DNA of 36,094 nt, taken from contig PEAB01000032.1 in the NCBI GenBank assembly GCA_002753395.1, positions 1-36,094 on the forward strand, in the 5' to 3' direction. The notes under the pieces were generated by a model. That model was given only the letters and a program-made list of their open reading frames with translations, was not told where the DNA came from and did no database searches. Of the stretch, positions 4,068 to 16,911 are shown one piece after another; positions within the stretch are counted from its first letter, which is position 1; the number at the start of each line of letters is the position of its first letter. This DNA comes from Nitrospirae bacterium MYbinv3 (lineage in GTDB: Bacteria; Nitrospirota; Thermodesulfovibrionia; Thermodesulfovibrionales; Magnetobacteriaceae). Position numbers and translations under genes: made by a program.

Positions 4068-4185
4068 GGGCGCTAAAAAAGTCGTGGGTTTTGTCAAAGA
4101 AGGTGAAGCTCTACCTACTGAAGCAGGGGTTCGCAACCACTCCGCAAGGGGATTAGTCCCATAGACCCCCATTAAAATATATCTT
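4068..4185 (+). repeat. Degenerate copy of the GGGYGCATAAGAAA element (GC-rich payload)
   Basis: This stretch aligns with the element at 34419-34576 over its left half: GGGCGC at 4068, then the shared GTCGTGGGTTTTGTCAAAG, the TCTACCTACTGA hairpin arm and CAGGGGTTCGCAACC. The left end has lost the CATAAG core and the right terminal repeat is absent, so this is an old decayed copy. Confidence 0.6.
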
Positions 4186-4205
4186 TGTTCCCCTTAATTT
4201 TATAT

Positions 4206-4353
4206 CTATACTTTTGCACTTTTTTATAAACCAGTATTTTATGCAGCTCTTGAAAATAGATTCCCGCTTTCGCGGGAATGACAGCAAATGGTGTCTTTAG
4301 CTGTTCCATGTCATTCCTGCGTAAGCAGGAATCCAGAAAGTGCAACACTATAG
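4206..4353. repeat. REP-like double-palindrome element, copy 1
   Basis: Two palindromes lie in tandem: ATTCCCGCTTTCGCGGGAAT and CATTCCTGCGTAAGCAGGAA. They are framed by weak terminal inverted repeats (CTATACTTTTGCACTTT on the left; AAAGTGCAACACTATAG on the right). The same layout recurs at 24991-25131 and 29551-29712. The palindromes resemble the ATTCCC-N8-GGGAAT (dRS3-type) repeats known from Neisseria and other bacteria. Confidence 0.75.
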
Positions 4354-4443
4354 TTATATGAAACACCTCTTGGCACGTCCATCGATTTCCTTGGTTTTTC
4401 GTATAGCAGGGACAAGGGCTGTACGTCTGTCCCATAAACAATT

Positions 4444-5469
4444 TCAGATGAGTTTCTTGCTTATCAATTCGTCCTTGAAATAGGCATAGTAGATTGGGGC
4501 GGCTATAACCCCTGACATGCCAAAAGCTGCCTCCATTATAATCATTGCAAGAAGCATCTCCCACGCCTTAGATTTTATCCGTGTGCCAACAATCTTGGCG
4601 TTTAAGAAATACTCGAGCTTGTGTATAACCACCAAGAAAATTAATGACGATACCGCTATTTTAAACGAATGGTTCAGACTCACGATGATAATTACAGTGT
4701 TTGATATAAGATTGCCAACAACCGGCAGCAGACCTGCAATAAATGTAACCGCTATCAATGTCTTGACAAGATTCAATTGGACTCCAAATAACGGCAAAAC
4801 CACGGCAAGATAAATAGCTGCAAAAACCGTATTTATGGCCGAGATACGCACCTGTGCAAAGACAATGCGGCGGAAGGACAACCCCAGCCTCGAAACACTG
4901 CTTATCATAGCCTGCGCAAGAGGGCCATAACGATGTGTTTCACTAACCTTGTCCAAGGCTATCAGAGCGCCCATAACCATACCAACGAGGATATGAGCTG
5001 TGGTTCGCAGAGCCTCCTGCCCAACGATCTGAAGATCGCTTGCATGATTGCGCAGCCATGTGGCAGCAGCGCTCTTGAATTCCTCGGTATCTGCAGGCAA
5101 GAGCTGTACAATCCAGGATGGCAGCGAGTTAAGGGAATTCTCTACTGTGTCAGCCATCCTCTGAAGCAAGAAAGGCAGATTGCCAGCGCTGCCTCTAAAA
5201 AAACTTATAGTGCCAAACGTCATAAGACACACTATCAGGATGATCACAACAGCAAGCAACGCGACAATTATTACCTTGGAACCGTGTCCGCTGATGCCTT
5301 TAACCCTGATCTTCTGAGAGAGGATGTGGACAAGCTCAAAGACGAGCAGTCCGCTCAACAACGCTGACAACAGGTTAATCTTTATGATTAATATAAGCAA
5401 TACCGTTGCAATTAACCACGCAACAAAATCATACGTTGAGATAATAGGTCTGGCCTCTCCATTGTTCAT
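4444..5469 (-). CDS. AI-2E family transporter (PerM/UPF0118)
   Basis: This 341-residue integral membrane protein has paired hydrophobic segments at the N terminus (about residues 14-45), one at about 65-90 and a block of four or more in the C-terminal half, separated by a long soluble region (about 95-150, FLLQRMADTVENSLNSLPSWI). That topology, and motifs such as LLPVVGNLISN and VGTRIKSKAWEMLLAMI, match the AI-2E/PerM permease family, whose members have been tied to AI-2 export or Na+/H+ antiport; the substrate here cannot be told. The length is slightly below the usual 350-380. It stands alone on the minus strand between repeat-rich gaps. Confidence 0.82.
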   Translation of the reverse strand: MNNGEARPIISTYDFVAWLIATVLLILIIKINLLSALLSGLLVFELVHILSQKIRVKGISGHGSKVIIVALLAVVIILIVCLMTFGTISFFRGSAGNLPFLLQRMADTVENSLNSLPSWIVQLLPADTEEFKSAAATWLRNHASDLQIVGQEALRTTAHILVGMVMGALIALDKVSETHRYGPLAQAMISSVSRLGLSFRRIVFAQVRISAINTVFAAIYLAVVLPLFGVQLNLVKTLIAVTFIAGLLPVVGNLISNTVIIIVSLNHSFKIAVSSLIFLVVIHKLEYFLNAKIVGTRIKSKAWEMLLAMIIMEAAFGMSGVIAAPIYYAYFKDELISKKLI

Positions 5470-6869: not shown

Positions 6870-7364
6870 ATGCTGAGATTATACGCAAAATGCCAATACG
6901 GCGTACGTGCAATGTATGAGATAGCAAAGGGCTATCCCAACGACCCTATAACCATAAGGGAGATAGCGCAGAAGCAGGATGTATCTATCCCATATCTGGA
7001 GCAGATATTGGGAAGACTAAGAAAGACAGGGCTGATAAAGAGCGTAAAGGGTCCTGGCGGGGGATATCTGTTGACCTCAAGTCCTGATAAGGTGACCATC
7101 GGTGCTATCGTGATGGACCTTGAGGGACCTGTGGCTATCACATCATGCCTGGATCCCGAGGAAGGATGCGTAAAGATTGACGGGTGCGTGGTTCATCTTC
7201 TATGGAGGGCCCTTGGCAGACAGATTGAGGAGTTTCTTAACACCATAACCCTTGTTGATCTCCTTGAGGGTAAACATTTTGAGGCACAGGTGCTTTTGGC
7301 TGCTTCAACTTCAGCATCTACGTTGATTAATGACGAAAAGAGAGATAAGACTGTTAGCGTATGA
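6870..7364 (+). CDS. iscR: IscR-like Rrf2-family Fe-S regulator
   Basis: The 164-residue protein has an Rrf2 winged helix (residues 1-85: YGVRAMYEIAK, VSIPYLEQILGRLRKTGLIKS, GPGGGYLL) and the three-cysteine cluster loop C93-X6-C100-X5-C106 followed by His109 (CVVHLLW), the ligand set of [2Fe-2S] IscR (C92, C98, C104, H107 in E. coli). The tail of about 25 residues is Ser/Thr/Ala-rich. It is first in an operon with tusA-like, iscS-like and iscU genes, and an IscR type-1-like site covers its own promoter, so it most likely represses this operon when clusters are plentiful. The ATG lies at the predicted transcription start. The stop overlaps the next start by 4 bp. Confidence 0.88.
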   Translation: MLRLYAKCQYGVRAMYEIAKGYPNDPITIREIAQKQDVSIPYLEQILGRLRKTGLIKSVKGPGGGYLLTSSPDKVTIGAIVMDLEGPVAITSCLDPEEGCVKIDGCVVHLLWRALGRQIEEFLNTITLVDLLEGKHFEAQVLLAASTSASTLINDEKRDKTVSV

Positions 7365-7627
7365 ATCTAAAATTTGTAGAAAATGTAAAGGCTGATATTA
7401 CCTCAGATATAGTATACATGATGTGTCCGATGCACTTATTGAAGTTAGAGGAACATATGAAGGAGTTGGATAGCGGGCAGGTCTTAGAGCTGTTGACCGA
7501 TTACGACGGTGCGTTAGAGGATATACCGGCTTGGTGGTTAAAGACCGGTAACGAATTCATAGGCATAGATGAGGCTGAGGATTATTATAAAATCTATATA
7601 AAAAAAGCGCGTAAAACTGTGAGTTAG
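7361..7627 (+). CDS. TusA/SirA-family sulfur carrier-like protein
   Basis: This 88-residue protein matches the TusA fold and length: the active-cysteine region CPMHLLKLEEHMKELDSGQVLELLTD (Cys22), then DIPAWWLKTGNEFIGI and a final strand YYKIYIKK. TusA passes persulfide sulfur between proteins. The usual CPxP motif is CPMH here: the second proline is replaced by His25 while the cysteine is kept. ATG overlaps the iscR stop (ATGA), and iscS follows after 17 bp, so translational coupling is likely. A TusA-like gene directly between iscR and iscS suggests it donates or receives sulfur for Fe-S assembly in this operon; that role is inferred. Confidence 0.8.
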   Translation: MNLKFVENVKADITSDIVYMMCPMHLLKLEEHMKELDSGQVLELLTDYDGALEDIPAWWLKTGNEFIGIDEAEDYYKIYIKKARKTVS

Positions 7628-7644: not shown

Positions 7645-8829
7645 ATGAGATATTTCGATCATGTGGCGACCAATCCCCTTCTACCGGAGGTGCTGGATGC
7701 TATGATGCCGTATTTCAAGGAGCAATTTGGTAATCCCTTAAGCCCTTATGATTTGGGCATTGCTGCAAAAATGGCCATTGATGACGCAAGACAGAGGGTT
7801 GCGGAACTTATCAACGCAAAGGCTGGCGAGATCGCATTTACATCCAGTGGCGCTGAGGCAAACAATTTCGCCTTAAAGGGCGTGGCCCTGGCAAAACAAC
7901 AGTCCGGTAATCATATTATAACGTCAAAGGCCGAACACCACTCCATACTTAACACAGCAAGGTCGTTGGAAAAACTTGGTTTTGTTGTAACCTACATCCC
8001 TGTGGATAAGGAGGGCCTGGTAGACCCAAAAGACGTTGAAAAAGCTATAACGAAAGACACAACCATTATCTCCTGTGCACATGCCTCAAGCGAGGTTGGT
8101 ACTATAGAGCCGATCAAGGAGATAGCTGCAATTGCAAAAGCGCACAAGGTGACGTTTCACGTCGACAGCGTTGCAGCTGTGGGTGCAATCCCTGTCGATG
8201 TGGCTGAGCTTGGTGTTGACCTCTTGAGCATGGCTGCACACCAGTTTTATGGCCCCAAGGGTGCAGGTGCATTGTACATCAGAGGTGGTCAACGGATAGT
8301 GCCGCTTATCTACGGAGGAATTCAGGAAAACGGCCGGCGGGCCGGTACGGAGAACGTCCCCGCCATAGTTGGTATGGGTAAGGCGGCAGAGCTCGCCAAG
8401 CGAGATCTGACTAGCCGCATGGAACACGTCAGGAAGCTCAGGGACAAGATTATAGATGGCATTGGAAGGGTTGAGAACGTGCATCTGACTGGACATCCGC
8501 AGAACAGGCTCCCCGGTCATGCCAGCTTTGTCGTTGAGTACATAGAGGGTGAGGGAATGCTCTTGATGCTTCAGGCACAGGAGATAGTTGCGGCAAGTGG
8601 GTCAGCGTGTACGTCAAAGGCGCTTAAGGCCTCGCCGGTGCTGACCGCTATGGGTGTTCCATCGAGCATGGCGCACGGTTCGATAGTCTTTTCGTTGGGA
8701 ATTGCCAACACGGAAGAGGACGTTGATGCGTTAATCGAGGAGCTGCCTAAGATAATAAGGAGATTGAGAGAGATATCACCTTTTGGAAAAGGCGGTTGGG
8801 GAAAGTTAGAGCCGGAGGTAGAACATTAA
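7645..8829 (+). CDS. iscS: IscS/NifS-like protein lacking the PLP lysine
   Basis: The 394-residue protein aligns along its whole length with group I cysteine desulfurases: FGNPLSPYDLG, FTSSGAEANN, EHHSIL (His98), FHVDS (Asp174), FYGPKGAGALYIR, GRRAGTENVPAIVG (Arg232) and the catalytic loop SGSACTSKALKAS (Cys322). However, the residue before FYGPKG, the Lys that normally forms the PLP Schiff base, is Gln200 (codon CAG). The usual NNE is SSE (148-150), and the Gln that follows the PLP Asp by three is Ala177. Three PLP contacts are therefore gone while the mobile cysteine remains. Archaeoglobus fulgidus IscS similarly lacks the Lys (an Asp) and is reported not to work as a normal PLP desulfurase. 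An extra 14-residue tail follows SPF. It may be a scaffold, a cysteine ligand donor or a persulfide relay for IscU rather than a desulfurase. RBS GGAGG precedes ATG. Confidence 0.88.
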   Translation: MRYFDHVATNPLLPEVLDAMMPYFKEQFGNPLSPYDLGIAAKMAIDDARQRVAELINAKAGEIAFTSSGAEANNFALKGVALAKQQSGNHIITSKAEHHSILNTARSLEKLGFVVTYIPVDKEGLVDPKDVEKAITKDTTIISCAHASSEVGTIEPIKEIAAIAKAHKVTFHVDSVAAVGAIPVDVAELGVDLLSMAAHQFYGPKGAGALYIRGGQRIVPLIYGGIQENGRRAGTENVPAIVGMGKAAELAKRDLTSRMEHVRKLRDKIIDGIGRVENVHLTGHPQNRLPGHASFVVEYIEGEGMLLMLQAQEIVAASGSACTSKALKASPVLTAMGVPSSMAHGSIVFSLGIANTEEDVDALIEELPKIIRRLREISPFGKGGWGKLEPEVEH

Positions 8830-8885: not shown

Positions 8886-9299
8886 ATGTATAGCAAGAAG
8901 TTGATGGATCATTTTACTAATCCACGTAATGTTGGTGAGATACCTGACGCCGATGGTGTAGGCATGGAGGGCAATCCCACGTGCGGGGATGCTATGAAGT
9001 TGTTTATTAAGGTGGAAAACGACAAGATTGTGGATGCCAAGTTTCAGACGTTTGGATGCGGCGCGGCCATAGCGGTATCAAGCATGATAACGGAGATGGC
9101 CAAGGGCAAGACGCTTGCCGAGGCCCTGTCAATAACGAAGGAGTCTGTGGCTGATGCCTTGGATGGTCTGCCCCCACAGAAGATGCACTGTTCAAACCTT
9201 GGTGCAGATGCGCTTAGGAAGGCCATCGAGGACTACAGGAGCAAGCACTCTGGCGTTGCTGGTGAAGCAGGTGGAAATAGTTGTTATTGTGGGGCTTGA
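8886..9299 (+). CDS. iscU: Fe-S cluster scaffold protein IscU
   Basis: The 137-residue protein is a complete IscU. Cluster ligands are present: Cys33 with Asp35 (NPTCGD), Cys58 (FQTFGCGAA), His101-Cys102 (QKMHCSNLGADALR). The wording resembles A. fulgidus IscU. The C-terminal tail SCYCGA adds two cysteines (133, 135) that classical IscU lacks. The start ATG has the strong RBS GGAGGTG. It lies 56 bp after iscS and is the last gene of the operon; the tRNA-Ser promoter overlaps its stop codon. It assembles [2Fe-2S]/[4Fe-4S] clusters for transfer to apoproteins. Confidence 0.92.
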   Translation: MYSKKLMDHFTNPRNVGEIPDADGVGMEGNPTCGDAMKLFIKVENDKIVDAKFQTFGCGAAIAVSSMITEMAKGKTLAEALSITKESVADALDGLPPQKMHCSNLGADALRKAIEDYRSKHSGVAGEAGGNSCYCGA

Positions 9300-12499: not shown

Positions 12500-12860
12500 T
12501 CATCTGAACTTGCCGCTATCTTGATTATATGGCGCTACTCTGATAAGAGCGGCAATCTCTTTGCGGTTGAGAACTCCTAGCTCTGGCAGATCACATAAGA
12601 TTGTAGCTGAAAGCACAGGACCTACTCCAGGAACATTTCGCAAAAGCTCATATTTTGGCTTCCAGACAGAACTGCTTTCTATAAGAGTTTTCATATCCTT
12701 ATCGTTTTCACTAAGCCTCTTTTTAAGCCATTCTATATGCTCTATAATACTGTTTTTAACTCGTTGGTTAGCTTTATTTAGACGATTCTTTTCCTCTGTC
12801 ATCATTCCAACAATCTGCAACATCCTTCGATACATCGATACCTACAAAACATCTTTCCAT
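12500..12860 (-). pseudogene. IS110-family transposase remnant with internal deletion
   Basis: The minus strand encodes MERCFVGIDVSKD (from ATG 12860), the N terminus of the DEDD domain of IS110-family recombinases. It is then joined out of frame, near 12825, to LQIVGMMTEEKNRLNKA and the C-terminal domain LLRNVPGVGPVLSATILCDLPELG...NRKEIAALIRVAPYNQDSGKFR. Roughly 100 middle residues, and the end after the Ser of the catalytic Tnp_IS116 segment, are missing. The right truncation coincides with the solo repeat end at 12485-12498. It is non-functional. Confidence 0.85.
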
Positions 12861-15591: not shown

Positions 15592-16911
15592 TCAATGTGT
15601 TAAATCTATGCGATATATAGAAGGAGCAATTGTACCTGACCTCAAAGCAATAATAGCTTGAACAAGAAACTCAAGTGGATTGCGATTTTGTAGCCGGCAA
15701 GTCATTGTTGCGGTAAGTATCCGGCCAGTCAAATTAGCTCCATCATCGCTTCTGTTACCAAAACAAACCTTTCTCCATTGGACAGCATTCCTTAATCCTC
15801 GTTCAGAAGAGTTGCTTGTAGGTTCAACCCCTTCATAAAAAATAAAGGTAAAGAGATGCTCTTGACGTTTTAACAGCTTGCGGCACAGAGAACGTACAGC
15901 TTTCGTGTCTGAATTTTTGTACTTCTCAAGCAGCTTCACTACAGCGTTTCTAAATCGCTTTGACCTGTCCACCAAGTTTTCTCGGGATATCTCACCTTTC
16001 TTAAATCTATGCCATAAGGCCATTAGGCTTCCCATCAGCTTTTTCATCTGTCGAGCAAATAATATAGCATCTATATCCTTGTTCTCATATCCTATATCTA
16101 ATATCCACCGAAAATCTCTCTTTAGATGAGCCCAACACATCTGCATTAAACCCTTGTGATATGCTCCCCACCTATCCACACATAGCCAGTATAAGCAGCC
16201 CCCAAAACATCAACTAATACTTGAGAACCACGACTTAAGGCTACTCTAAAGTATATAAAGCTGGAGGTAACAAATACCCATAACCACCTGTCCCGCCAGC
16301 CTGTCTCATCAACATTAAGCACTGGTTCATCGGGCAGCTCTCGCTGTAACTCTTTATCCATAGACTCCAACGCAAGCGACGTCTCTTCCAATAATCCCTG
16401 GATTGACCCAAGACATATCTCTACTCCTAAAAGTGTATGACAAAACAGCTCTGCACCACGACGACTTGTGTGGTGTACTGACACAAGATACGCAATGATA
16501 GATGCTAATCTCGGTCCAAATTCTGACAATGCAACATCAGAAGACAATTCTGCTTTGTTGATATGACCACAACTACATCTTACTGTATGACAGCGATATT
16601 CTGTCACCTCTGGCTCTATCGGGGGTATTTCAAATACTTGCCATCTCCTATCTGGAACTAACTATCTCGCTGTACCCCTTATGTCCTGGCTGACCACCTG
16701 CTTTACGTCTTTTACTCTTACCACTCTTCTCTTTTTCCTTGTTACCTTTGAAATGATCCGTAGAGGGAGGCTTGGACGAGTTTTGGGAGTTCTTATCCAA
16801 ACCAGCTAATTTCTCCTTTAACTGTATATTCTCAAGGTGATACTCAAGCAGCTTTGCTACTGCCGGCTCCTTGCCTGAATAATATAATGTCTCTGCTGCT
16901 ATTCTATCCAC
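15592..16911 (-). pseudogene. IS66-family transposase with two frameshifts
   Basis: Three successive minus-strand frames make up one IS66 transposase. 16911-16648 has the N-terminal coiled coil with SQNSSKPPSTDHF and GGQPGHKG. 16607-16146 has the zinc-like CHTVRCSCGH, TSRRGAELF and VLNVDETGWR (a catalytic Asp). 16179-15592 has DRWGAYHKGLMQMCWAHLKR, the catalytic-domain SNSSERGLRNAVQWRKVCFG and the C terminus. Frame changes occur near 16665 and 16165 and cancel, so the first and last segments share a frame. The element is inactive as read. No IS66 orfB-type accessory genes are beside it. Confidence 0.88.

Follow-up and report, generated by a model that had tools for sequence, protein, structure and literature searches.

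Textbooks name cysteine as the source of the sulfur in Fe-S clusters, and in established structures Arg356 of E. coli IscS binds the carboxylate of the cysteine substrate. IscS homologues without the catalytic Lys are already known: one comes from A. fulgidus, and M. acetivorans IscS1 (MA0808), which is paired with IscU, has been noted as another (PMC7585200). Inclusion-body formation of the protein kept the M. acetivorans IscS1-IscU1 pair from being characterised (PMC7585200). The A. fulgidus IscS (PDB 4eb5, 4eb7 and 4hvk, with the D199K mutant in 4r5f) has lost the PLP Lys, the PLP-ring Gln and the substrate Arg (motifs SSND, DATAS and GTLLLT), and it keeps the loop Cys and has IscU as its partner. 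In E. coli, TusA and IscU dock on IscS beside the loop Cys (3lvj, 3lvl; PMC11302665), with IscS making a persulfide from cysteine and passing it to TusA. With the MIS system (MisS-MisU), which occurs in archaea and bacteria, the locus described here shares a minimal IscS-IscU pair that stands apart from the rest of the ISC genes, by the definition cited in PMC12442378. MisS is described as a cysteine desulfurase, whereas the protein described here is without the residues for that chemistry.

The window, a 36,094-nucleotide stretch of contig PEAB01000032.1 from Nitrospirae bacterium MYbinv3, contains the operon rrf2-tusA-iscS-iscU (Table 1). The tusA start codon overlaps the rrf2 stop codon (ATGA), IscU has its three conserved Cys residues (in NPTCGD, FGCG and KMHC), and a tRNA-Ser gene lies downstream of iscU. 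All four genes were found again in 61 to 65 of the 65 larger near-relative loci, nearly all near-relative loci have rrf2 upstream of tusA, and the outer neighbours vary. Codon 59 of the window tusA (7535-7537) encodes Trp at a position where 103 of 117 relatives, congeners included, have a second conserved Cys; the residue may be one that TusA can do without, or its loss may be recent. By eye, transposase-like fragments are also visible near the operon, one IS110-like at 12500-12835 (-) and one IS66-like at 15592-16179 (-). A further ORF at 4172-4564 (-) holds 'VIPAKAGI', a peptide known from chance translation of a dispersed DNA repeat.

Table 1 Positions of the operon genes and of the key codons of the IscS homologue in the window.
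Feature	Position	Strand	Basis
Rrf2-family regulator (IscR-like)	6870..7364	+	Pfam Rrf2, E 2e-35; TIGR02010 (IscR) 128 bits, below the cut-off of 207.55
TusA-like sulfur carrier	7361..7627	+	Pfam TusA PF01206, E 1e-18; Cys22 in CPMH (TGT, 7424-7426)
Lys-less IscS/NifS homologue, PLP and substrate sites degenerate, catalytic-loop Cys322 kept	7645..8829	+	394-aa ORF
Codon 200 (CAG), Gln at the PLP-lysine position (E. coli Lys206)	8242..8244	+	DNA reading and alignments
Codon 322 (TGT), loop Cys (E. coli Cys328)	8608..8610	+	Invariant across 256 homologues
Codon 348 (GTC), Val at the substrate-carboxylate Arg position (E. coli Arg356)	8686..8688	+	DNA reading and alignments
IscU/NifU_N scaffold	8886..9299	+	NCBIfam TIGR03419, E 2.9e-61, above the cut-off; Pfam NifU_N

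The IscS homologue has the class V aminotransferase fold (Pfam Aminotran_5, E 2e-81) and scores below the NCBIfam cut-offs for both NifS (TIGR03402, 492 vs 530.75 bits) and IscS (TIGR02006, 388 vs 643.2 bits). Structure prediction gives it a complete IscS fold (pLDDT 86, pTM 0.86), with low confidence in loop 321-326, the Cys loop, and in loop 223-235. The best PDB matches of the predicted model include Nfs1, A. fulgidus IscS from the IscS-IscU complex, and E. coli IscS from the IscS-TusA complex. The DNA around codon 200 reads CAC CAG TTT TAT GGC CCC AAG, giving Gln200 in place of the PLP Lys. The alignment indicates that the ring Gln is replaced by Ala177, the NNE motif by SSE148-150, and the phosphate-binding Thr by Ala70. 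Val348 lies in the sequence GSIVFS, in which canonical enzymes have Arg replacing the first Val. Cys322 in the SGSAC loop, His98, Asp174 and Arg232 are retained. With the PLP Lys, ring Gln, NNE and Thr lost along with the substrate Arg, the cofactor and substrate sites are both degraded, and judged by these residues normal PLP/cysteine desulfurase chemistry has likely been lost.

The original prediction for this gene had given Gln200 (CAG), SSE148-150, Ala177, Asp174, His98, Arg232 and Cys322, all of which agree with the DNA and the alignment; the losses it listed are correct, but the list overlooked Val348 at the Arg356 site and Ala70 at the Thr site. It had also proposed kinship with A. fulgidus IscS, which is supported by 46% identity and the same pattern of loss. 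The two proteins share one fold (TM-score 0.91-0.92, 4eb5 vs the model), and in the window protein, as in that of A. fulgidus, the Lys, ring Gln and substrate Arg are replaced together, the loop Cys is kept, and iscU is adjacent. They differ in that A. fulgidus IscS has Asp where the Lys would be, preceded by Asn instead of His, and keeps both NNE and the phosphate Thr. Finally, the prediction had held that a single sequencing error was an insufficient explanation, a view borne out by the relatives of the gene. Scanning genome contigs yielded 80 relatives, 72 of them near (66-88% identical, nearly all in records titled Nitrospirae). The PLP Lys is absent from 72/72 near relatives, with Gln in 71 and Met in one, and Cys322 is kept in every one. 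Against two congeners, dN/dS for iscS is 0.070/1.07 (~0.065) and 0.088/1.44 (~0.061), and thus the Lys-less gene is under purifying selection with dN/dS of ~0.06. Homologues from Nitrospirota, Chloroflexota and archaea have the Lys-less pattern in common, A. fulgidus IscS (PDB 4eb5) among them. Since homologues across phyla carry the same loss and the gene is under purifying selection, the loss is not a sequencing error. Sequencing or assembly error, chance, and a decaying pseudogene are together ruled out, to near certainty, by the 72 near relatives, the dN/dS and the intact operon.

For a wider comparison, we collected 256 distinct IscS-family proteins from whole genomes of Nitrospirota and two other phyla. 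Both the Lys and the substrate Arg are present in 121 of these (canonical); 120 have neither, five have only the Lys, and 10, all archaeal, have only the Arg. The altered set, lacking Lys and/or substrate Arg, therefore comprises 135 proteins. All 256 have Cys322. Gln occupies position 177 in 121/121 canonical proteins vs 1/135 altered ones, and Arg occupies position 348 in 121/121 vs 10/135, though the classes are partly defined by this residue. The residues flanking Cys322 also differ, with basic K/R325 and K328 in the altered group and mostly G/A and E in canonical proteins. PDB entries 9wep-9wfy form a series of solved structures in which one cysteine desulfurase of 406 aa carries substitutions at these same positions of the pocket, one entry having Lys->Leu, Arg->Val and Gln->Pro.

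These residues bear on whether the altered proteins could still be PLP enzymes with another reaction or substrate, holding PLP non-covalently through Asp174, His98 and Arg232. All three are retained in 120/120 proteins of the group without Lys and Arg, which speaks for this reading. However, the Lys is not lost alone but together with the ring Gln and substrate Arg, the clade of the window protein has Ala for the phosphate Thr, and one archaeal group has Asp in place of the stacking His. Position 200 is also variable; it is mostly Gln in the group without Lys and Arg, or Asp in the A. fulgidus type, and over all altered proteins it can be Q, D, T, M, R, P, N, I, S or A. We consider a repurposed PLP enzyme very improbable.

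The altered proteins fall in two places in a quick tree, from which several independent origins could be read. This was not upheld, as a tree holding them as one clade fits at least equally well and is the more likely (AU p 0.75). Five proteins (L120, L122, L124, L131 and L133) retain the PLP Lys although their substrate Arg and ring Gln are gone; TusA accompanies 4/5 of them, and they are possible intermediates in the loss of function. The quick tree places the Lys-bearing, Arg-less proteins inside the bacterial altered clade, a weak indication that loss of substrate binding preceded loss of the Lys. In a second archaeal type (L271-L278, L280 and L283), the Lys is replaced by Thr, the stacking His by Asp and the ring Gln by His, with the Arg kept, tusA present in 8/10 and iscU adjoining. 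We take the Lys-less loci L271 and others to be of the M. acetivorans IscS1 type, with gene order tusA-dsrE-iscS-iscU; the window protein differs from this type at the Lys, stacking His and ring Gln positions and in having lost the Arg.

Neighbouring TusA genes were sought with a profile built from these loci, on the same strand and within 2.5 kb. Counting distinct proteins, a TusA gene lies near 125/135 altered IscS homologues vs 0/121 canonical ones, 13 of the canonical loci having less than 1.1 kb on a side. Thus, in the sampled set, TusA accompanies altered homologues and never canonical ones, which is a new observation. The Fisher p of 8e-62 overstates this association, since the sequences are related and the data do not reject a single clade uniting the altered proteins; for the same reason the 125 cases may not be independent events. 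TusA lies upstream of the altered IscS in 101 cases and downstream in 24, and the association is seen in Nitrospirota, Chloroflexota (sampled around a genome titled Dehalococcoidales) and a phylum of Methanoculleus-like archaea, which argues that it outlived rearrangement. Among the TusA proteins adjoining an altered IscS, Cys22, the persulfide Cys of a CPxP-like motif, is invariant (117/117), with the fourth motif position being His in 81 and Pro in 36. In archaeal loci a DsrE-family gene (Pfam DsrE/DrsE_2) is often found between tusA and iscS, giving the order tusA-dsrE-iscS-iscU. No paper describing a TusA-linked Lys-less IscS was found in the open-access literature, and on that basis the TusA link and the loss of the Arg across the group appear undescribed.

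A. fulgidus has two copies, one in the arrangement tusA-dsrE-iscS(Asp)-iscU-dsrE-like and one as iscS(Asp)-iscU without TusA, the latter matching structure 4eb5. The L286 protein matches 4eb5 almost letter for letter over the stretch compared, and we take its genome to be that of A. fulgidus. In the A. fulgidus-type genome, a protein that by eye resembles Sep-tRNA:Cys-tRNA synthase, an enzyme that needs a sulfur donor itself, lies in the tusA-dsrE-iscS-iscU cluster (L285:1-681, -). The copy without TusA nearby would fit the main rival to the reading we favour, in which, following the proposal made for A. fulgidus IscS, the protein is a platform that holds IscU, Cys322 is a ligand of the cluster being formed, free sulfide is the sulfur source, and TusA has another purpose, such as tRNA or cofactor thiolation or regulation. 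The A. fulgidus protein of 4eb5, which has these losses too, was observed in a [2Fe-2S] complex with IscU in which an IscS Cys is a ligand, and had no desulfurase activity, as summarised in PMC7585200. E. coli without IscS uses H2S anaerobically in an IscU-dependent manner (PMC13015791), which makes a sulfide-fed platform feasible. Such a platform leaves unexplained why TusA stands beside altered and never canonical homologues, and we regard it as rather unlikely.

In the genome of the window (96.6% complete), a whole-genome search turned up the operon IscU as the sole NifU_N protein and detected no SufB/D domain; all 14 control genomes (14/14) gave SufB/D matches. Across 80 related genomes surveyed for Lys-less IscS, NifU_N and SufB/D, Lys-less IscS occurs in 60, with NifU_N within 1 kb in 57. 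In 33 of these the adjoining NifU_N is the only one in the genome, and 23 of the 33, consisting of the window's genome and 22 relatives (a single-contig genome among them), are also without SufB/D. Within the family of the window organism, SufB/D is absent from 12/12 genomes, 11 of which, including the single-contig genome, have exactly one NifU_N adjoining the Lys-less IscS. The opposite holds in a different genus of the order (g12), in which six genomes without the Lys-less IscS have a SufB/D match but no NifU_N. The sole NifU_N beside the Lys-less IscS, the missing SufB/D and the reverse pattern in g12 together indicate that the operon very probably makes Fe-S clusters. No paper on genomes with this pair as the only NifU_N or SUF-type scaffold was found in the open-access literature.

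The window's genome also encodes four TusA proteins and a second IscS on another contig (G000:C62, L002), which is 44% identical, has the Lys, NNE, ring Gln and Arg intact, and is not near iscU. A third class V aminotransferase match resembles an alanine-glyoxylate-type enzyme. The second IscS rules out the idea that the genome has no other desulfurase; the cell still has a cysteine desulfurase, and independence from cysteine is not implied. The original prediction had proposed looking for just such a Lys-bearing copy elsewhere, and its view that the protein works with IscU gains support from the adjacent iscU being the only NifU_N in the genome. The second copy could also mean that the Lys-less protein is a non-catalytic acceptor or regulatory pseudo-enzyme, binding canonical IscS, IscU or TusA to tune flux, while IscU receives sulfur from the Lys-bearing IscS. 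All second copies of the family that we inspected have the Lys, NNE and ring Gln intact, in keeping with this reading. However, in the window's genome the Lys-bearing gene lies away from iscU, and a protein that did no more than bind partners would have no need of the invariant Cys322, making a pseudo-enzyme improbable.

We favour a relay from TusA to IscU, with the platform as its main rival and the pseudo-enzyme and repurposed PLP enzyme less likely. In the proposed relay, the IscS-fold homologue would no longer take sulfur from cysteine and would serve as a dimeric docking hub. The TusA-like neighbour would bring sulfane sulfur as a persulfide to Cys322, and the Cys322 loop would hand the sulfur on to IscU, which would build the cluster. 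This flow would be the reverse of the E. coli transfer from IscS to TusA. The joint loss of Lys, ring Gln and substrate Arg, with Cys322 invariant across the 256 homologues, is consistent with such a role. The E. coli IscS sites for TusA and IscU are adjacent and overlap, both giving access to Cys328, and TusA Cys19 is 4 Å from that residue (PMC11302665). By analogy, a Lys-less IscS with its Cys loop appears pre-adapted to accept TusA-borne persulfide and hand it on to IscU. Against the relay, the Arg patch that docks TusA in E. coli (R220/223/225) is only partly matched by G214, R217 and V219, though R217 is commoner in the altered group.

TusA could be loaded by the Lys-bearing IscS encoded elsewhere, with cysteine as the source, or from sulfide or polysulfide via DsrE- or rhodanese-like proteins; the intact second IscS and the four TusA proteins of the genome leave room for both routes. 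A. vinosum DsrE can carry a persulfide loaded from sulfide in vitro (PMC3397948). TusA might instead act as an acceptor, since gene association gives no direction. The inactivity of the protein, the docking, and the direction and chemistry of transfer are all inferred, and for the relay as a whole, with desulfurase function lost and TusA sulfur passing via Cys322 to IscU, we see about an even chance. The original prediction had suggested either a persulfide relay or a cluster ligand, and the relay half is strengthened by the TusA association, to which it had no access. A more far-reaching version is doubtful, though worth stating: cysteine desulfuration at the scaffold would be abolished altogether, and TusA, with DsrE in archaea, would load sulfane sulfur derived from sulfide or polysulfide onto a PLP-free hub supplying the sole IscU of the cell, as a widespread and cysteine-independent form of assembly.

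In these whole genomes, the one NifU_N scaffold detected is paired with an IscS for which cysteine chemistry is not plausible. The arrangement of TusA and IscU around it suggests that sulfur reaches Fe-S clusters by a hand-over route rather than by the usual IscS chemistry, and the TusA association gives the A. fulgidus-type IscS a candidate sulfur donor. M. acetivorans with SufBC deleted still makes clusters (PMC10500019), and the TusA-linked Lys-less IscS is a testable candidate for cluster building in sulfide-using archaea. The main value of the finding is that the source of sulfur in such cells becomes directly testable.
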